Notes under the pieces: generated by a model
Told to the model about the DNA's origin: nothing
The model's input: the letters and a program-made list of their open reading frames with translations, nothing else
Databases searched by the model: none
Assembly (NCBI GenBank): GCA_020631235.1
Contig: JAHDHQ010000012.1
Location: 1 to 64,000 of the forward strand
DNA: 64,000 nucleotides
Direction of reading: 5' to 3'
Source: Saprospiraceae bacterium
Lineage (GTDB): Bacteria; Bacteroidota; Bacteroidia; Chitinophagales; Saprospiraceae
Translations under genes and position numbers: made by a program
Part shown: piece after piece, positions 30,744-40,495 of the stretch
Numbering within the stretch: the stretch's first letter is position 1
Layout: each line of letters opens with the position of its first letter

Positions 30744-32129
30744 TTATCGCTTGGCCCATTGCATAGAAACGTACATTAACCAGGCTTTGAGTTTATGTTT
30801 AAGAAACGGCATTGACAAAGCACCTCCTTCTGATTTTTGCTGGAATGCGCGTACCGAATTTTCCACCCAGCGTACAGCATAATCATAGTATTTTCGAGGA
30901 TAATATCTTTCAAAGTCTCGGTCTCGATCAGTCGTTTCCATCCAATTCAAGGATTGTGTTTGTTTCGCTTCCACTTCCTGATAAAGTGATGTTCCTTTGA
31001 TGGGATATGCTACTGTAATCGTAAAATGATTAGGGTTAGATTCTTTTAAATGTTTCACCGTTTCTTTAATATCTTCTTGAGTTTCTCCAGGATAACCCAG
31101 CATTATAAAAGTACCTGCTTCCATATCATTAGCTCTAGTGCGTTGGATCATCTTTCTTACCTGATTTACATCCACTCTCCGATCCATTAGATCGATCACC
31201 TTCTGGGATCCACTTTCAGCACCAATCCAAATCCTAAAAGCACCTGCTTTTTTTAAAGTTAAAATCACCTCTTCATTCATCCTATCTGCCCGAGTAATGC
31301 ACTCAAAGGGTATGATGGCGTCTTGCTTTTGTACCTCTTCGGCAAAAGCGGCCAACCATTTATGACTAACAGTAAAAACATCATCCACAAACCACACTGA
31401 ATCGGGATTATAGGTTTCTTTTAAATGTTTAAGCTCTTGAGCCACTAAAGAAGCACTTCTCCGTCGATAACTTTGTCCATATACCGCAGTGCTGCACCAT
31501 TTGCATGTATACGGACAACCTCTTTGAGTACTCACAGTCATTGCACTTTTTCCATGGTGTGTTTTCCATGTATCGAGATATGCTTGTATATCGATCATCT
31601 TCCGATTAGGGAAAGGCAGCTCATCTACCGACTTTATTTTTGTGCGTTCTTGTGTTTTGACCAATGTTGTGCCTGAGTAATAGGCTATACCGGGTATGTG
31701 ACCAAACTCATGGGTATTACCACTTTCTATGGTATTTACAATATCAAGCATAGTTTGTTCTCCTTCACCTATCACCGTTATTTTAGCACCTGCTTGCAGA
31801 TAATCTTCAATGTTATGTCGCACATCAGGTCCACCGATAACTAGAGTCGTATCACTGAGTTGATGTTTTACAAACTGCATAATTTCGATGACATTCAACT
31901 TAGTCATGAGATTGGTGTATATGGCTAAGATCTCTGGTTGTTCTTTCAGCAGGTAATCCTTAAGCAGTTGTTTGCGAGAAAATGTGGTATCGAAAACTGT
32001 ATTAGCTTTATTATGTTTTTCTAACCATGCGGATAAATATAAGATGCCTAGCGGAGGATAAGGACGCATAATCGCTTGTTCCTTTTCGTCTTCCTTGATA
32101 AAATATCCGTGTGTAAAAACTACTTTCAA
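30744..32129 (-). CDS. B12-binding-domain radical SAM protein
   Basis: The 461-residue protein has an N-terminal cobalamin-binding-like domain (PYPPLGILYLSAWL, VIGGPDVRHN, VIGEGEQTM). It then has the radical SAM cluster motif C-x3-C-x2-C in RGCPYTCKWC (about residues 205, 209 and 212), and later IWIGAESGSQ and MLGYPGET. This is the BchE/MiaB-like class of uncertain reaction, often methyl transfer to an unactivated carbon or ring chemistry. It sits in a glycan operon, so modification of a sugar or lipid carrier is likely. The start codon is TTG. It is a paralogue of the gene at 39029. Confidence 0.83.
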   Translation of the reverse strand: MKVVFTHGYFIKEDEKEQAIMRPYPPLGILYLSAWLEKHNKANTVFDTTFSRKQLLKDYLLKEQPEILAIYTNLMTKLNVIEIMQFVKHQLSDTTLVIGGPDVRHNIEDYLQAGAKITVIGEGEQTMLDIVNTIESGNTHEFGHIPGIAYYSGTTLVKTQERTKIKSVDELPFPNRKMIDIQAYLDTWKTHHGKSAMTVSTQRGCPYTCKWCSTAVYGQSYRRRSASLVAQELKHLKETYNPDSVWFVDDVFTVSHKWLAAFAEEVQKQDAIIPFECITRADRMNEEVILTLKKAGAFRIWIGAESGSQKVIDLMDRRVDVNQVRKMIQRTRANDMEAGTFIMLGYPGETQEDIKETVKHLKESNPNHFTITVAYPIKGTSLYQEVEAKQTQSLNWMETTDRDRDFERYYPRKYYDYAVRWVENSVRAFQQKSEGGALSMPFLKHKLKAWLMYVSMQWAKR

Positions 32130-32979: not shown

Positions 32980-35571
32980 TTATTGTTTATGTTTCTTTTG
33001 TAAATATACATGTGGATTACCTTCTAAAATAAATCCTGCCCAATAATAAGGATGAGCAAATCGATCTATGTTCTTTACCTCTTCTTTGGCTAGTTTAAGC
33101 GCTTTATCCAAAGAATGTCCTTGGCTCCAATGTCTATACAAACTAGGCATAAAAATAGCCGTTGCTTGTTCGTTTACCTTCCATAAAGATTTTATGATCG
33201 ATGCTGAGCCTGCGTGCAAAAAAGCACGGCTAATGGAATAGGTCCCAGCCCCATTTCTATGTGCTCCAGTTCCCGTTTCACAGGCAGAAAGCGTAATTAC
33301 TGAAGGAGATTCTTCTAGGTTCTCGATTTCGTAGCTATACCATTTCTCGGCATTTCCTTCAGCATCACGTAATAGTATATAGTTATCCAAGCGATTTTCT
33401 TTGTTCATAGAAGCATGACTAGAAATATGGCTAATATCTACTAGCATACTTGATTTTAAATTTTGTTTAGTCATTTGTTCACCAGCCAAAGTTTGGGTAT
33501 TTACTGAATTAAAAACTTGGCGGATTGATTGCGTTTCTTCCCAACCTTTAGGAAGTTCTGGATAGGCTTTAATCCTTGTGTCATTTTGAGTTTTAAGATT
33601 AGTGTAGCTAAGTAAACTTACGCTTGGATTTTGGATGGTTAAGGTATCCATAGACTGATATTCATATAGATCAAAATGATAGTGGATACTTTGTTCAGGA
33701 AGTAAAAGTTCGAATGACAATTGGAAAGTGTTTCCATCGGCGAGGATTAAAAGATCCCCTTCGCTATGCAACTGCGAAGGAAGTATCAATTGTTTAATGT
33801 TTTCTGATGTATTTTGTAAATCTTGTTGTTGCATTATTTGATGATTAAATGCCTGCACTAGACTATCGAGTGTAGCTGTAGAAAATGCTCCCAACTGTAA
33901 AGTATCGCGAGTATAATAATAAAACCATGTATCAGATTTATAGGTAAAATACTCTATCACTTGATGGTCTCCGCTCATAAAATATGAAGATAGGTTTTTA
34001 GTAGGTTCAGACTTGTTTACCATTTCATGAAACTGCGGCCATGTTCCTTTTTCCTTTAATAACTCATACAGTTCTATGAAGATAGGATCACCGTAATAGC
34101 TGGTATCTAATAAATCTTGAGTGGTTTTAAATATTTCAGAGATCCGATTAAGGGTTTGAGTTTGATTTGGGCTTAATTGGCGACTAGCATCTTCATGGCG
34201 TTTTCTTTTTAATTCTTGAATTTTAGTTTCTTGGACCAGTTTAATGATTTGCTTTGCTGCATTATGATCAATTAAATGCTTGTGACTATGATAAGTACTT
34301 ATTATTTCTGAGGCAATTTTAGCATGGAGATCTTGGATATGGAAGGAAGCTTTACCAACCCAAATTTCTTTTGCTAATTCCTTTCGTTTAAAATTGATTT
34401 CAATCTGGACTTCTGCTGAATACTCCGAAAAAGGATGGTCTCTTAAAAAATCAAGGCTAATAAAAGAAGCATATTTTCCTGTTTTACCTGGACAGTCGCG
34501 TAACGCTTCAATTTGTTTTTTGTATGTATTAAAAGCAGCTTTATTCGGAGCAGTATGAATGAGGTAAACTAGCGAGATTATATTTCTATGGTGACAGTCC
34601 CAATCTTCAAAAAGTTTGTGTGCTTTTTCAAAGAATTCAAAAGCTTTGTCCGAGTTTTTATTCAAATAAAAAACACCTAAGTTTATGAGTACTCGATATC
34701 GATTATTTACGTCCATTTCTTTTTCCAAACAGCTCTCCATAAGCGCAATAGCCTCGTCGCTTTCACCTTTAAAATCGAGAATGTATGATTTGACCACATC
34801 TGCAGAAATGCTATCTTTTGTCGAGGAGAGGCTTAAATTATTTATATAGTATTGGATGTTATTAGTTAGATCATTTATGTCAAACTCCTTAATCAATTCT
34901 ATACAAAACTGGTTTAAGGAAGCTTTTTTAAAATGATTGGATAAAGCTTTATTTTCTAATAATTGTGCTTGCGCATAATTATGCAGATGATTGATGACAT
35001 TGGCGTATTTTTCTTCGTTGAGTTGATTTGTTTTCGTGTGATCTACGGAGTATTCGAAATAGGTTTTTAGAAGCTTAGCCTCTTCGAGATAGTGAAAAGC
35101 CAAATTGTATTTTTGGGATATTTCTTCAGCAATAGTAACGCTTGGCGTTAATTGTTTCCTTGATAGGACAACAAGGGAATTATATAAAATCTCGTAGAGT
35201 ACGTCTTTTTTTCTCCAAGCACTTAAGTTGTCCCAAATGGAATGCATACCACTCGTATCGAATGAAACATTCAATTGTTCTTTTAGAGCACTCAAGGCAT
35301 GAACTGTGGGATTAAGTTTGTCGTGCTTTTGCCAATGAGTCGGACAATGGATAGCCAACAAGTGATTTAAACGAACCGAGTCTTTGGTGTTTGTTAGGTA
35401 TTCTGATTGGAGACTTAGATCGTTTTGTAATACAATTTCGATATATTCTTCTATATAGCTCAGATCGTTTTTTGAACAAGCACTCCAGATTAAAGTCATA
35501 ATGAGGAAAAAGAAGAGAACACTACCTTGTAAAGGAAGTACACTCTTTTTTTGACCATTATTTATACCCAT
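32980..35571 (-). CDS. CHAT-domain (caspase-like) protease lipoprotein with TPR repeats
   Basis: The 863-residue protein has an N-terminal hydrophobic segment ending in a lipobox-like SAC (about residue 33), so it may be lipid-anchored. The middle is helical with TPR-like repeats. The CHAT domain follows, with a catalytic histidine in ISSHAS (about residue 719) and a cysteine in LSACETGTG (about residue 764). SLWKVNE and HPYYWAGFILEG complete the CHAT signature. CHAT proteases cut partner proteins in response to a signal. In Bacteroidota they often sit with a sigma factor and a TPR protein, as seen here at 37708-38957. No target can be named. Confidence 0.85.
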   Translation of the reverse strand: MGINNGQKKSVLPLQGSVLFFFLIMTLIWSACSKNDLSYIEEYIEIVLQNDLSLQSEYLTNTKDSVRLNHLLAIHCPTHWQKHDKLNPTVHALSALKEQLNVSFDTSGMHSIWDNLSAWRKKDVLYEILYNSLVVLSRKQLTPSVTIAEEISQKYNLAFHYLEEAKLLKTYFEYSVDHTKTNQLNEEKYANVINHLHNYAQAQLLENKALSNHFKKASLNQFCIELIKEFDINDLTNNIQYYINNLSLSSTKDSISADVVKSYILDFKGESDEAIALMESCLEKEMDVNNRYRVLINLGVFYLNKNSDKAFEFFEKAHKLFEDWDCHHRNIISLVYLIHTAPNKAAFNTYKKQIEALRDCPGKTGKYASFISLDFLRDHPFSEYSAEVQIEINFKRKELAKEIWVGKASFHIQDLHAKIASEIISTYHSHKHLIDHNAAKQIIKLVQETKIQELKRKRHEDASRQLSPNQTQTLNRISEIFKTTQDLLDTSYYGDPIFIELYELLKEKGTWPQFHEMVNKSEPTKNLSSYFMSGDHQVIEYFTYKSDTWFYYYTRDTLQLGAFSTATLDSLVQAFNHQIMQQQDLQNTSENIKQLILPSQLHSEGDLLILADGNTFQLSFELLLPEQSIHYHFDLYEYQSMDTLTIQNPSVSLLSYTNLKTQNDTRIKAYPELPKGWEETQSIRQVFNSVNTQTLAGEQMTKQNLKSSMLVDISHISSHASMNKENRLDNYILLRDAEGNAEKWYSYEIENLEESPSVITLSACETGTGAHRNGAGTYSISRAFLHAGSASIIKSLWKVNEQATAIFMPSLYRHWSQGHSLDKALKLAKEEVKNIDRFAHPYYWAGFILEGNPHVYLQKKHKQ

Positions 35572-35696
35572 TGAATCAGTAATTTTAACTAAATTAAACT
35601 GAATATTTTCAGAAAACTTGAATCGGAAGGGAAATTTTATGCTGTCTTAGGGTCACTTTTTTTGATATTTATTTACAAGTAATTAAAACAATTCCA

Positions 35697-36455
35697 ATGA
35701 AAAATCTACTCTTGCATGGTATTGCATTTGCCTTTATGATGATTATTTATTCTGGTTGTCAGCCATGTGACTCGTGCTGCAAACAACGCATTGAATGTGA
35801 ACCACAAACTCAAACTGAATTTCCTAATGACAAATATTTTATCGGAAAGGTAATTATACCTGCAAAATCATCATATTCCACTGGAATGATTCGGGTCTTG
35901 ATTAATGAAAATGCTGCTCCATTAAATTATTATAGAGGCATCACTTACTCTCGAAAGCAATTTAACACGGCTGACTATATTCCAGAATATCTAGACACTG
36001 TTTACTTTAAAGTAAAAAAGCTTGGAGATATTTTGCTTGCTACCGATGTAACAACTGATAAATCAGCAATAGTCTTATATGACCCGAATGAGTTGCTCAA
36101 CTATCAAGATAAATTTGACATAGACCTACATATCCACCCTACCGAAAAAATGCATACAAAGTTACATGTTATGGGTATAAATGGTTCAGTTAATGCAAGT
36201 GCTACCGATGGTACGTCAATCGTTGTAGTTAATTTACAGAAAAGAAATAATGAAACTAATGCGCCAGAGGGGCCAGTGTTTACAGAATATGTTTTGAGCT
36301 CCAATTGGAATCAATTTACATCTCAAAATCCTAATTATTCTACTTTAGTGGTTTATCAAGATATTGTTCACCGAACAGGTATAACCGTAAATGGTACAAC
36401 TTCTACTCAAGACATTAAAGCTTTAACATTAACACATACGCATGGGCATCCATAA
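35697..36455 (+). CDS. Putative lipoprotein upstream of the zincin, unknown function
   Basis: The 252-residue protein has a signal sequence with a lipobox-like SGC at about residues 19-21, followed by a cysteine-rich patch (CQPCDSCCKQRIEC). The mature domain is beta-rich and ends in a histidine run (THTHGHP). I do not recognise a family. It overlaps the following zincin-type gene by 14 nt, so the two are translated together and probably interact. It is divergent from the CHAT gene, with 125 nt between. Confidence 0.6.
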   Translation: MKNLLLHGIAFAFMMIIYSGCQPCDSCCKQRIECEPQTQTEFPNDKYFIGKVIIPAKSSYSTGMIRVLINENAAPLNYYRGITYSRKQFNTADYIPEYLDTVYFKVKKLGDILLATDVTTDKSAIVLYDPNELLNYQDKFDIDLHIHPTEKMHTKLHVMGINGSVNASATDGTSIVVVNLQKRNNETNAPEGPVFTEYVLSSNWNQFTSQNPNYSTLVVYQDIVHRTGITVNGTTSTQDIKALTLTHTHGHP

Positions 36456-37701
36456 GACAATAGCTTATATTTTATTTTGTAGTTTGTTTGCCATTTCTTG
36501 TTGTGGTGGAAAAGATAATATTTGCTATCCTTGGCAATCATTTAACGATATCTCTTACTTACTTTTTCAACCAAATGGTCATACCCAATATCAGTTAATT
36601 CCTGGACAAAAAATTGAAAATTCTATTTGCTGGGATTATAAAACCAATGATGGTGAGTACTTTGTTTTTCCTTATAATGGCCGAATAACTCGGAAGGGCG
36701 AACAGAATTTGTCCAGGAACACACTGCATTCTTTTAAGGTTTATTACCCTCCAACAACATCTACAAGTTTAGTCAATGAGCCTTTAGTGAGATCCATAAA
36801 TAATTATTTTACAAAACTATATTCTGGAGTAAGCTGTAGTTTTTTGAGTACTACGACCATGAACAATTACGAATCCATGGACGACATCAGTGATCCTCAA
36901 AATATATATAATCAAATTGGTATTGATTCAAATTATAAATACCATTTGATTATAGACCCAAACAGATCATTCACAGCCGGTAACCTGGCATTGTTCCATA
37001 GATTTGATATCAACAATACTGAATATGATAAGACTGATGATCTAATTTATTTAGTTGGAACCCCTGAACTAATTTTGGATCCTGTCATTTTTGTGCATGA
37101 GTTCTTTCATAATATTGCAGACCAAGACAATGATATAATTTATGAAACACCCACGGGACAAGTTGGCAACATTTTAAATTCAGCAAGTCCAGTTTGTGCT
37201 TATGTAGTGGAGTTAAATCAGTTATTATCCTTACAAAATATCGAAGCTCCAGACCAATATCCATCTGAATTTACTCTTCCAGAAAATGTTGAAGTAGATT
37301 GTGCGGAATTCTTTGCTCTGAATGACGAGCGAAGATTGTATGCTGTGCATCCCAGCTCTTCTGATTTACTAAATAGTATTGATAGTACTACAATAGCTAA
37401 GATCTTGACAACAGAATCTACAGGATTTATGAATGTACAAGATCAAAAAATCTTGCGATCAGTTTTAAAACAAGAACATAAATTAGTAGCTGTCAGTCCA
37501 GACAAAAATATTAAGCCTTTTATTCAAGAATCGAATTACATTGAATATAGACTATCCAATTTAGAAAAACTCAAAAAAAACAACTTAATCAAATATATGA
37601 TTGCTTTTGAAGGGGAAGATTATAAAGCAACTAATGCAGATCCTTATAAAAATGCTGACGATTTTACTGAATTAAAAAGTCTATTTCTTTCGACTAAATA
37701 A
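36442..37701 (+). CDS. Predicted zincin metalloprotease lipoprotein
   Basis: The 419-residue protein has a signal sequence with a lipobox-like ISCC at about residues 17-20. The motif H-E-F-F-H (about residues 219-223) gives the two histidines and glutamate of a zinc protease. About 66 residues later, AEFFAL (E near 289) resembles the third-ligand helix of lethal-factor-like (ATLF) peptidases, where an EFFAEAF-type helix follows HExxH. The rest is not recognised. It would act outside or at the outer face of the cell. Its gene overlaps the preceding lipoprotein by 14 nt and lies opposite to, and inside, a sigma/TPR/CHAT module. Confidence 0.62.
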   Translation: MGIHKTIAYILFCSLFAISCCGGKDNICYPWQSFNDISYLLFQPNGHTQYQLIPGQKIENSICWDYKTNDGEYFVFPYNGRITRKGEQNLSRNTLHSFKVYYPPTTSTSLVNEPLVRSINNYFTKLYSGVSCSFLSTTTMNNYESMDDISDPQNIYNQIGIDSNYKYHLIIDPNRSFTAGNLALFHRFDINNTEYDKTDDLIYLVGTPELILDPVIFVHEFFHNIADQDNDIIYETPTGQVGNILNSASPVCAYVVELNQLLSLQNIEAPDQYPSEFTLPENVEVDCAEFFALNDERRLYAVHPSSSDLLNSIDSTTIAKILTTESTGFMNVQDQKILRSVLKQEHKLVAVSPDKNIKPFIQESNYIEYRLSNLEKLKKNNLIKYMIAFEGEDYKATNADPYKNADDFTELKSLFLSTK

Positions 37702-37707
37702 ACTAAC

Positions 37708-38367
37708 TCACTGCATTCGCTTAATCAAAGCTATATCACTCTTTGCCCTTTCTTCCTTACTTTGCTGTAATGATTGAATGGCTTGATCCCATTGTTTACG
37801 ATTCATGTAGACATGACCTAACCAATAGTGAGCCTTACTCAGCGTGTCTTGGTTTTGGTTTTCTGAAAGGACTTTAGTCAAAAAGTTTTCGGCGTTTTTA
37901 AAATCATTGAGGGCAAAGTGATATTTACCAGCGGCAAAATCATCTAGGGCATCCAAATCGGTAGATTTAGTAGTGGATGAATCATAAGGCCGTTGATATT
38001 GTTGTTCCCAAATTTGATCATGAGTATCTATTTGTGCATTTCTATACCCCAAATAAGCCACTCCTAATAAACCTACAAAACTTGCAGCCATTGCCCACTT
38101 TTGAGTTAAGCCACGACTGGGTTTTGGAATTATTTTGGTAGCTGGTACCGATGAAGAATTATCAGATGTATCTTGTTGAATATTTTCGATGGTTTCTAAT
38201 AAATCCAATTCGAGTAATCCTTCGCTCAAAGTTTTGGCAGCAGGAAAGTTTGCTACAGCAGCTTTGAGGCTTTCATCATTAGCCATTGCTTCTTCGAAAG
38301 CTGTGCGCTCGGTCTCAGATAAACTGTTTTCCAGATAATGTTCGATATGATCATAAAAATCCATCAT
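37708..38367 (-). CDS. Anti-sigma-like single-pass membrane protein with TPRs
   Basis: The 219-residue protein starts with an acidic helical region resembling anti-sigma N-termini (MMDFYDHIEHYLENSLSETE). One membrane helix follows (about residues 93-108) and then a periplasmic TPR-like domain (ALNDFKNAENFLTKVL, AHYWLGHVYMNRKQWDQAI). It overlaps the sigma factor gene by 4 nt, the usual arrangement for a sigma/anti-sigma pair in this phylum. It probably holds the sigma factor at the membrane until a signal is sensed. Confidence 0.75.
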   Translation of the reverse strand: MMDFYDHIEHYLENSLSETERTAFEEAMANDESLKAAVANFPAAKTLSEGLLELDLLETIENIQQDTSDNSSSVPATKIIPKPSRGLTQKWAMAASFVGLLGVAYLGYRNAQIDTHDQIWEQQYQRPYDSSTTKSTDLDALDDFAAGKYHFALNDFKNAENFLTKVLSENQNQDTLSKAHYWLGHVYMNRKQWDQAIQSLQQSKEERAKSDIALIKRMQ

Positions 38368-38957
38368 CTTAAAGCTTCTTTAATAGTAGGGTTTTCTTCG
38401 ATGAATATTAGCAATTGTTTCATGCACTTGTATTTCTTTTTCTTAGCCATACCTTCACTTTGATAGCCAAGCATTGCTGCGATTTGATGCATCCTGTATC
38501 CATTAGCCCAATGCATCAGTACCTCTTTACAATTACGTCCTAACTTAGCAAGTAAATCAGTCAATAACTCCTTTTTTTCTTTTAATATCACTAGAGCTTC
38601 TGGCTGAATAACATCTTTTTTATCATGATGGATTTGCCATTCTTCGCTTCGATGTTTTTTACGATCAGAAAGTTCTTTAAGCCACACATACTTAGCTATA
38701 CCGATAAGATATTGTCTGATTGAAGTCTCGATCTCCATATCATTGTTTTTTATCACTGTCTTAACAAATTGGATCAGTGTGGTATTAAATACTTCTAGTG
38801 CGTTTTCTTCCTTACCACCATTATTTATTACCAAACCAAAAATCGTAGTTTTTAAGCTTTGGTCATGATACAGTTGTCTAATGACATCATCACGTCCTTG
38901 CTTTCCAGATCTGATCTGACTTAAAAGTTTTTTGTTAATTACAGCCTTACTATCCAC
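38364..38957 (-). CDS. RNA polymerase sigma factor, ECF-like
   Basis: The 197-residue protein has a sigma region 2-like helix set (residues about 20-100) and a region 4-like helix-turn-helix (LTDLLAKLGRNCKEVLMHWANGYRMHQIAAMLGYQS). The spacing and length fit small Saprospiraceae-type sigma factors found before TPR/CHAT genes. The start codon is GTG. The gene overlaps the anti-sigma-like gene by 4 nt. It likely controls the CHAT gene and perhaps its own operon. No matching promoter was identified. Confidence 0.78.
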   Translation of the reverse strand: MDSKAVINKKLLSQIRSGKQGRDDVIRQLYHDQSLKTTIFGLVINNGGKEENALEVFNTTLIQFVKTVIKNNDMEIETSIRQYLIGIAKYVWLKELSDRKKHRSEEWQIHHDKKDVIQPEALVILKEKKELLTDLLAKLGRNCKEVLMHWANGYRMHQIAAMLGYQSEGMAKKKKYKCMKQLLIFIEENPTIKEALR

Positions 38958-39028
38958 AAGTGATAAAATTGATCATTATGTGACCTCAAAATAAGATAAT
39001 TTAACTTGACTAAAAAATGAGTGTTAGC

Positions 39029-40495
39029 TTACCGAGATGTCGCTGCGTACCTTTTGAGCAAACTAAACCGGTATAAGGCTAAAGGTAGATGATAGAGCAT
39101 TTTTGCTGTATTGCGAAGAAAGCCTTTAAATCGCCCACTAAAAATCGATTTAAGACTGATCATTCCTTTCCGAATATTATACCTACTATGTACATACCTA
39201 TGCAGTGTTTTATAAAATATAGGTTGATAGGTATTACTAAACATTAGATCTAAGTCATCCGAGTCTGACCAATTAGCTTTTTCTTTTAATTCGTGTTTTA
39301 CTTTATCATAAAACTTAGTACCTGGTAGAGGATATGATACGGAGATACCAATTTCATCTGGCATTAAATCAAGGACCATTTTCATAGTTTTTTGGATATC
39401 CTCAAATGTTTCTCCTAAATATCCAAATTGCAAAAAGAAAGCTACCTTGACTTTTCGTTCTTTTAAGCGTTGGCTGGCCTCATAGATCTGCTCTACCTTA
39501 GTCCCTTTATCCATGGCGTCTAAAATCGCTTGACTTCCACTTTCTGCACCTAGCCATATAATATCTGCGCCACTATCAGCCAGTGCATCCAAATTGTCAT
39601 CTTGTAGCATTAGATCAGCTCTCGATTGAATTTTATATTTAAAGCTTAATCCCAGTTTCTCTTTTTCAGCTAAAAAGGTTTGAACCCAGCGGGGCTTAAG
39701 CCCAAAAATATCGTCACACATCCAAAAATAATCGACGTCAAATAAGGTCTGCACATATTTTATCTCTTGCATCACTTTCTCTGGCGAACGAGAATTATAT
39801 CTGTTTCCATAAATAGGTTTTGCACACCAATTACACTTGTATGGACATCCTCGAGTAGTGGCTAGATTCAAGGCAAAATAACCGTGATTATCCATCCATA
39901 TTTTACGGTAAGGCTCGATGTTTATTAAGTCCCATGCCGGCATAGGAATACTATCTAAATCTTTAATCACTGGACGTCTTGGATTGAGTTTGACACTACC
40001 CAGCTGGTCTTTAAGCGCAATACCTAATAAATCTTCCGTTGATTGGTTATTTTCTAGGCATTGGACCAAATCTAAGATCGTTTCTTCTCCTTCACCCAGT
40101 AAAATATAGTCTGCCCCTTCGGTCAAATATTCTCCATAATGATCCGTCGAGTCCGAACTGCTTACAATGACTGTAGCACCTAATGCCTTTGCCTTGCGAA
40201 TCATTTCAAAACAAGCATCTCTCATGACAGTGAGACACATTTTTGTCAGATAATTAAAACCATCATCATAAACAATCACATAAGATGGTTTTTCTTGCTC
40301 CATTTGGGTGCAAACACCTGTCACGTCATTGGACAAACAATTATCGTAAACACTTACAGCATAGCCATGATTTCTCATATAAGAAGCTGCCCACAACGTA
40401 CCTAATGGAGGATATGGCTGAGCCGTTTTCCATTGTTTGCTATCCATCGGATAGAAATAACTATTGGTAAAAAATATGTTCAGTTTCTTGTTCAA
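39029..40495 (-). CDS. B12-binding-domain radical SAM protein (paralogue)
   Basis: The 488-residue protein has the same layout as the gene at 30744. It has PYPPLGTLWAASYM, a LLGEGEETILD segment, then C-x3-C-x2-C in RGCPYKCNWC (about residues 217, 221 and 224), IWLGAESGSQ and FGYLGETFEDI. The reaction is unknown; sugar, lipid-carrier or hopanoid-like modification is possible. The start is TTG and overlaps the stop of the nucleotidyltransferase as TTGA, which implies coupling. Confidence 0.82.
   Translation of the reverse strand: MNKKLNIFFTNSYFYPMDSKQWKTAQPYPPLGTLWAASYMRNHGYAVSVYDNCLSNDVTGVCTQMEQEKPSYVIVYDDGFNYLTKMCLTVMRDACFEMIRKAKALGATVIVSSSDSTDHYGEYLTEGADYILLGEGEETILDLVQCLENNQSTEDLLGIALKDQLGSVKLNPRRPVIKDLDSIPMPAWDLINIEPYRKIWMDNHGYFALNLATTRGCPYKCNWCAKPIYGNRYNSRSPEKVMQEIKYVQTLFDVDYFWMCDDIFGLKPRWVQTFLAEKEKLGLSFKYKIQSRADLMLQDDNLDALADSGADIIWLGAESGSQAILDAMDKGTKVEQIYEASQRLKERKVKVAFFLQFGYLGETFEDIQKTMKMVLDLMPDEIGISVSYPLPGTKFYDKVKHELKEKANWSDSDDLDLMFSNTYQPIFYKTLHRYVHSRYNIRKGMISLKSIFSGRFKGFLRNTAKMLYHLPLALYRFSLLKRYAATSR

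Follow-up and report, generated by a model that had tools for sequence, protein, structure and literature searches.

The window analysed here (the whole stretch of DNA, 64,000 nt, to which all coordinates refer) comes from contig JAHDHQ010000012.1 of a Saprospiraceae bacterium and contains a five-gene module that looks like an undescribed envelope proteolytic signalling or response system. On the minus strand, a GTG-started gene for an extracytoplasmic function (ECF) sigma factor of 197 aa (38364..38957) overlaps by 4 nt the gene of a predicted anti-sigma factor (37708..38367), which is composed of a cytoplasmic N-terminus, one transmembrane (TM) segment and a C-terminal tetratricopeptide repeat (TPR) part. 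On the same strand, after a gap of 2,136 nt, lies the gene of a CHAT-TPR lipoprotein of 863 aa (32980..35571), a cysteine protease with H715/H719-C764. The gap encloses a plus-strand pair of genes overlapping by 14 nt: the first (35697..36455) encodes a small lipoprotein with a predicted cold-shock-like domain at about residues 40-124 and five histidines, and the second (36442..37701) a metalloprotease-like lipoprotein (P0003) with an HExxH motif, HEFFH, at residues 219-223. A divergent intergenic region of 125 bp (35572..35696) separates the CHAT gene from the pair. A preliminary description made from the sequence alone had listed these five open reading frames (ORFs), and all of them were confirmed with their coordinates, strands and overlaps.

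The three lipoprotein genes (CHAT-TPR, small and HExxH) were found as a unit at 18 distinct Saprospiraceae loci. In all of them (18/18) the HExxH gene came immediately 3' of the small gene, against a background of 12/347 ORFs; a CHAT gene was near the pair in all 17 evaluable loci, and a sigma/anti-sigma pair was nearby in 14 of the 18. This recurrence is far beyond chance. The gene-order conservation in related Saprospiraceae that the preliminary description had predicted therefore holds, with the five genes as one conserved module, and the proposed co-occurrence of the pair with CHAT and sigma genes was also found, the tie to CHAT being the tighter one. The opposite outcome, a pair occurring independently of CHAT, was not observed, since in the searches across the family the pair never lacked a CHAT gene except at one locus cut by a contig end.

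In a genome of the same genus (G109, locus L042), the synteny was exact and included both flanks. The identities between the two genomes were 87-90% for the radical SAM proteins, 79% for sigma, 61% for anti-sigma and 45% for CHAT, and only 24% for the pair, indicating that the pair diverges much more rapidly than all of its surroundings. Other genera have different flanks and retain the unit. Because the glycan and radical-SAM neighbours are kept only inside the genus, the CHAT gene is not part of the glycan operon; such membership, the second outcome that would have spoken against the earlier proposal, is thus not seen either.

The gene order of the module was repeated at L045 and L046, and its gene set at L044, L048, L087, L088, L089, L090 and L092, with the CHAT gene of L089 truncated where its contig stops; CHAT and the pair without sigma are present at L043 and L091. 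Contigs of named Saprospiraceae metagenome-assembled genomes repeated the pattern and added the loci L150, L151, L153 and L156, and at a further locus, L263, the CHAT gene is about 7 kb away. All five genes point the same way in L153 and L156, in the order sigma, anti-sigma, small lipoprotein, HExxH and CHAT, with gaps of 12-25 nt after the anti-sigma gene in L153 and of 6-228 nt in L156. This operon-like arrangement is the strongest sign that the five genes belong together. The pair was carried by 17 of 398 Saprospiraceae genomes, and nothing credible was found outside the family among 395 genomes of the class, so that it is confined to the Saprospiraceae in the searches made. Weak small-protein matches outside the family, in G581 and G641, were rejected: their loci (L268 and L269) have no CHAT gene, the L268 protein resembles an ABC substrate-binding protein by eye, and the L269 protein is without the His motif.

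The CHAT peptidase assignment is certain, with a PF12770 match of 133 bits compared to a cut-off of 24. His715, His719 and Cys764 are invariant across 14 relatives, in agreement with the definition of a CHAT peptidase, and the His/Cys pair is thus intact, as had been noticed before. The lipobox cysteine C32 is present in at least 90% of the aligned relatives, and searches of PDB sequences with the CHAT profile gave no convincing relative. In a quick tree of 77 rows, the pair-linked CHATs formed one group with an SH-like approximate likelihood ratio (SH-aLRT) support of 95; the group also contained two unlabelled rows, L159, truncated at the edge of its contig, and L057, where the neighbouring gene product also ends in H-x-H. 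Hydrophobic and TM segments of CHATs and anti-sigma homologues in the modules were called by simple hydropathy rather than by a trained predictor. Among 68 CHATs of sigma modules, 64 had an N-terminal and 50 a C-terminal hydrophobic segment. A C-terminal TM segment was found in 0/13 pair-linked CHATs and in 50/55 other module CHATs (p 2.7e-10, a nominal value because the rows are related). The natural inference is that CHAT gave up a membrane-spanning anchor for a lipid one at the time when its two lipoprotein partners were gained.

In the HExxH lipoprotein, H219, E220 and H223 are invariant in 13 members, and Peptidase_M10 (PF00413) was matched by 4 of 13 relatives, the best at 7.7e-6. A weak fold match to fragilysin and adamalysins was also found. 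The AlphaFold2 (AF2) model had a mean predicted local distance difference test (pLDDT) value of 54, and Argonaute MID domains scored equal to adamalysins in VIA, so that the fold is no more than suggestive; with the zincin profile, searches of PDB sequences gave no convincing relative. The window copy (HEFFHNIADQD) has the Asp at position +10, with Ala in place of the Gly and NIL, that is Leu, at the Met-turn. Metzincin-like is probably the best label for the protein, and peptidase activity of the window copy is uncertain from its motif. A gluzincin reading based on the EFFA segment was discarded, the segment not being conserved in orthologues. In L150 (5670-6749) the HExxH gene is apparently split into ORFs of 238 and 117 aa, possibly a frameshift or a degraded copy, and in L153 (4897-10137) and L156 (4786-10209) the HExxH protein starts without an obvious signal peptide.

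For the small lipoprotein, no convincing match was found in Pfam (none at E<=1), NCBIfam or PDB sequence searches, and on these comparisons it is a new protein family, not in Pfam. Across 13 members, with 14-26% identity to the window protein, the five histidines (145, 153, 157, 247 and 249) are the only invariant columns, and they suggest a metal site; many members also have an extra Cys. The AF2 model had a mean pLDDT of 60; the ten-residue blocks between residues 41 and 140 had about 57-89, with the lowest value at 71-80. Residues 40-124 of the model matched cold-shock domains (CSDs) in VIA, the best with Z 10.1 over 73 aligned residues at 2.2 A, and all 50 rows listed were CSDs or CSD-containing proteins. 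A cold-shock-like oligonucleotide/oligosaccharide-binding (OB) fold is therefore predicted for the N-terminal half. The PF00313 profile matched none of the family members, and a sequence proof was tried by hhalign against 13 CSDs of the host family and failed (E 0.054, Prob 1%), leaving the structure prediction. We do not claim nucleic-acid binding, because the typical RNA-binding aromatics are mostly missing by eye and the CSD sequence comparison was not significant. Of the "zincin pair" in the preliminary description, the HExxH partner thus stands, while the small protein is instead a His-cluster lipoprotein with a predicted cold-shock-like domain. Two related observations were made at other loci: in L154 (7010-7888), a 292-aa protein with the His-rich motif lies between anti-sigma and CHAT without an HExxH neighbour, and in L057 (8984-9709), the neighbour of a CHAT lipoprotein is a divergent protein of 241 aa that has NHSH at its end and hints at a further, zincin-less variant of the histidine protein.

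The sigma protein matched the NCBIfam families TIGR02985 (E 2.9e-8, 34.1 bits compared to a cut-off of 126) and TIGR02937 (1.8e-7, 31 compared to 42.9). Both scores lie below the curated cut-offs, and the E-values favour a divergent ECF sigma factor, in line with the earlier ECF-like call. The anti-sigma protein matched TPR_2 (1.2e-8) and, below cut-off, the antisigma family NF052375 (2.5e-6), and a TM segment is present in 66/69 anti-sigma homologues of CHAT modules. Both labels are predictions from significant sub-cut-off NCBIfam matches together with the gene arrangement. Three members of the genus have GGTCAC (GGTAAC once) closely preceding sigma and again 40-47 nt ahead of the pair. In the window, these promoter-like motifs are GGTCAC-N14-TATCACTT, directly upstream of sigma (38958..38985, minus strand), and GGTCAC with TTACAAGT, upstream of the pair (35651..35685, plus strand). 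A position weight matrix built from the sigma sites alone ranked the pair promoters of the three genomes 3rd, 8th (the window) and 11th among 120 upstream regions. In G188, the motif is kept before sigma and before the pair despite three intervening genes. A promoter motif shared by sigma and the pair in this genus is tentatively proposed.

Beyond the family, we read about 16 kb around each of 26 Bacteroidia CHAT loci, which were taken from a phylum-wide Pfam list and chosen regardless of their neighbours. A sigma/anti-sigma pair lay beside CHAT in 15 of the 26, compared to 0/20 random Saprospiraceae regions (Fisher p 1.5e-5; the profiles were trained on CHAT-linked members and are possibly less sensitive to other ECFs, so the control may be slightly optimistic). 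None was found beside CHAT at 8 loci of other classes. The association of CHAT with ECF sigma and anti-sigma genes is class-wide in Bacteroidia. Named examples of the CHAT/sigma module include Flaviramulus, Nonlabens, Winogradskyella, Moheibacter and Sediminibacterium, and two of the four CHAT paralogues in the window's own genome (L008 and L009) also have a sigma/anti-sigma pair, with other partner genes.

Starting from a conserved gene unit with conserved catalytic residues, predicted secretion and anchoring and co-inheritance in one CHAT clade, we read the module as an envelope proteolytic signalling or response system, with a probability of roughly 40%. A cue sensed by the TPR part of the CHAT lipoprotein would activate its cysteine protease. 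The protease might then act on the fast-evolving lipoprotein pair, so that the metalloprotease is activated or set free from its His-cluster partner, and/or make a site-1-like cut in the membrane-bound anti-sigma factor, within its periplasmic TPR part. The freed ECF sigma factor would transcribe its own operon and, in the window's genus, the opposite-strand pair through the shared GGTCAC, giving an amplified response. Proteolysis would finally take place in the envelope or on the cell surface, with stress repair, predation or defence all conceivable as its role. We infer these cleavage steps; the nearest precedent is the CASP system, in which Csx30, an inhibitor that acts on an ECF sigma factor, is cut by a CHAT protease (PMC10028731). 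The pair is favoured as the direct CHAT partner because it is tied more tightly to CHAT than sigma is and because of the anchor change. The sigma-controlled proteolytic response of the preliminary description is thus plausible through the class-wide association and the promoter-like motif of the genus.

Several results weigh against this reading. The sigma/anti-sigma pair was not found at 4/18 loci and is not essential to the unit. A general test for a shared sigma/pair promoter over 11 loci gave no signal, and a genome-wide search for the motif pattern returned 5 exact matches (the sigma site being one) compared to 16 for the reversed control, which is no enrichment. The putative -10 of the sigma promoter abuts the start codon, and the transcript would therefore be leaderless, or the motif an operator instead. 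The third zinc ligand position (+10) varies among the HExxH proteins: of the 17 members tabulated, 8 have His or Asp there, 3 have Glu and the remainder carry other residues. Some partners may therefore lack activity or differ in how they bind metal.

The tighter linkage of the pair to CHAT (17/17, compared to 14/18 for sigma), its fast evolution (24% in the same genus, against 45% for CHAT and 79% for sigma) and its presence in so few genomes of the family would also fit a self-contained weapon or a cell-death or defence device, in which CHAT activates a zincin held by the small protein and the sigma/anti-sigma genes, as ancestral CHAT companions, only set expression or are drifting away. We consider this two-protease effector unlikely, since the sigma link persists in 14 loci and in two operons. 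PADLOC profiles gave no match to the five proteins except a weak, chance-like SIR2 match (E 5e-4, 17 bits) to the TPR protein, no mobile or defence-island context was seen in the window, and synteny in the genus is vertical. Together with the lack of a CRISPR-like repeat, these results did not bear out the "defence-like" character suggested earlier. Alternatively, the five-His lipoprotein could bind Zn, Cu or Ni in the periplasm and signal through CHAT and the anti-sigma factor, CnrX-like in principle, with the metalloprotease as a metal-dependent output. The five histidines as the only invariant residues, the extra Cys and the HExxH partner agree with such a circuit, but no metal transporter or efflux genes were noticed in the loci read and no homology to known metal sensors was detectable, and we regard it as less probable still. 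That CHAT/sigma and the pair are independent neighbours, adjacent by chance or at a shared insertion site, as their opposite strands, the three unrelated genes between pair and anti-sigma in G188 and the loci without sigma might hint, is contradicted by the recurrence at 18 loci with different flanks, the two co-oriented operons and the single clade, and has hardly any probability.

Compared with known systems, the envelope signalling module shares with CASP/Craspase (type III-E: Cas7-11, TPR-CHAT Csx29, Csx30 and CASP-sigma; PMC10028731, PMC9729208) a TPR-CHAT protease, an ECF sigma factor and its inhibitor in one locus. However, its CHAT is a secreted lipoprotein, its inhibitor is a TM-TPR protein and not Csx30, and it has two additional lipoproteins. 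No cas-like gene, Cas7-11 included, was found among the module and the nearest flanking genes scanned, the rest of the genome not having been searched for Cas7-11. There were no direct repeats of a clustered regularly interspaced short palindromic repeat (CRISPR) array in 28-46 kb and no CRISPR match in the PADLOC scan of the five proteins. The module resembles CASP in logic and is not a member. The DegS-RseA-RpoE system and similar circuits of a site-1 protease and an anti-sigma factor (treated in PMC10028731) likewise have an ECF sigma factor, a single-TM anti-sigma factor with a periplasmic domain and an envelope protease, but that protease is a PDZ serine protease in place of a CHAT cysteine protease, and cleavage in the module is presumed. 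The ECF54 group, in whose context genes for CHAT, subtilase or carboxypeptidase occur, shares CHAT near an ECF sigma factor and is said to be without an anti-sigma factor (PMC8999054), unlike the module with its TM-TPR anti-sigma. EACC2/caspase systems combine a caspase-like protease with ECF sigma and a TPR protein of the DUF1822 type (PMC8195603), whereas the module has no DUF1822 match, consists of lipoproteins of the envelope and has its anti-sigma factor in the membrane. Metzincins (M10/M12, fragilysin, adamalysin) share HExxH, the His or Asp at +10 in about half of the module members and the Pfam M10 matches, but their full signature is HExxHxxGxxH/D with a Met-turn; the window copy is without the Gly and the Met-turn Met, and the third ligand is variable in others. 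Cold-shock proteins (CspA, YB-1) share the predicted fold of the small lipoprotein, which differs from them in being a lipoprotein, in having no Pfam CSD match and in the replacement, by eye, of most aromatic ribonucleoprotein (RNP) residues. No description of the module was found in the open-licence literature searched; an earlier description elsewhere is possible.

According to a coevolution study, only about 6% of Bacteroidetes ECF sigma factors have a class I anti-sigma domain next to them, and its authors suggested that other control modes may dominate in this group (PMC7406223). A module of CHAT, ECF sigma and TPR anti-sigma present across the class would offer a concrete example of what such a mode might be, and with it caspase-like proteases would reach beyond cytoplasmic defence into envelope signalling. 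The variant with five genes adds a Pfam-absent protein family with a five-histidine signature and opens a proteolytic cascade to direct testing. A more far-reaching scenario is conceivable but doubtful: a CRISPR-free envelope CHAT/anti-sigma/ECF switch would be widespread in Bacteroidia, with a periplasmic caspase-like site-1 protease for the TPR anti-sigma factor, and one Saprospiraceae lineage would have re-wired it to a dedicated and fast-evolving substrate pair of cold-shock-like five-His lipoprotein and metzincin, producing a two-protease cascade.

Other CHAT loci and the surroundings of the module gave some further observations. The CHAT partners at L008 (5499-10889) and L009 (5228-10088) are different secreted proteins of 505 aa and 268 aa. 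In L047 (6538-7146) and L049 (6864-7385), a similar-looking gene of 170-200 aa, without an obvious signal peptide, lies just upstream of CHAT and represents another partner type. A tail-to-tail placement of CHAT and anti-sigma genes is frequent in Flavobacteriia and Chitinophagaceae (L163, L174, L188, L195, L218 and L219), the gene ends overlapping or being separated by a few nt. B12-binding radical SAM proteins at 30744-32129 and 39029-40495 flank the module in the genus, and a glycosyltransferase cluster, which is kept in G109 and G188, encloses it.

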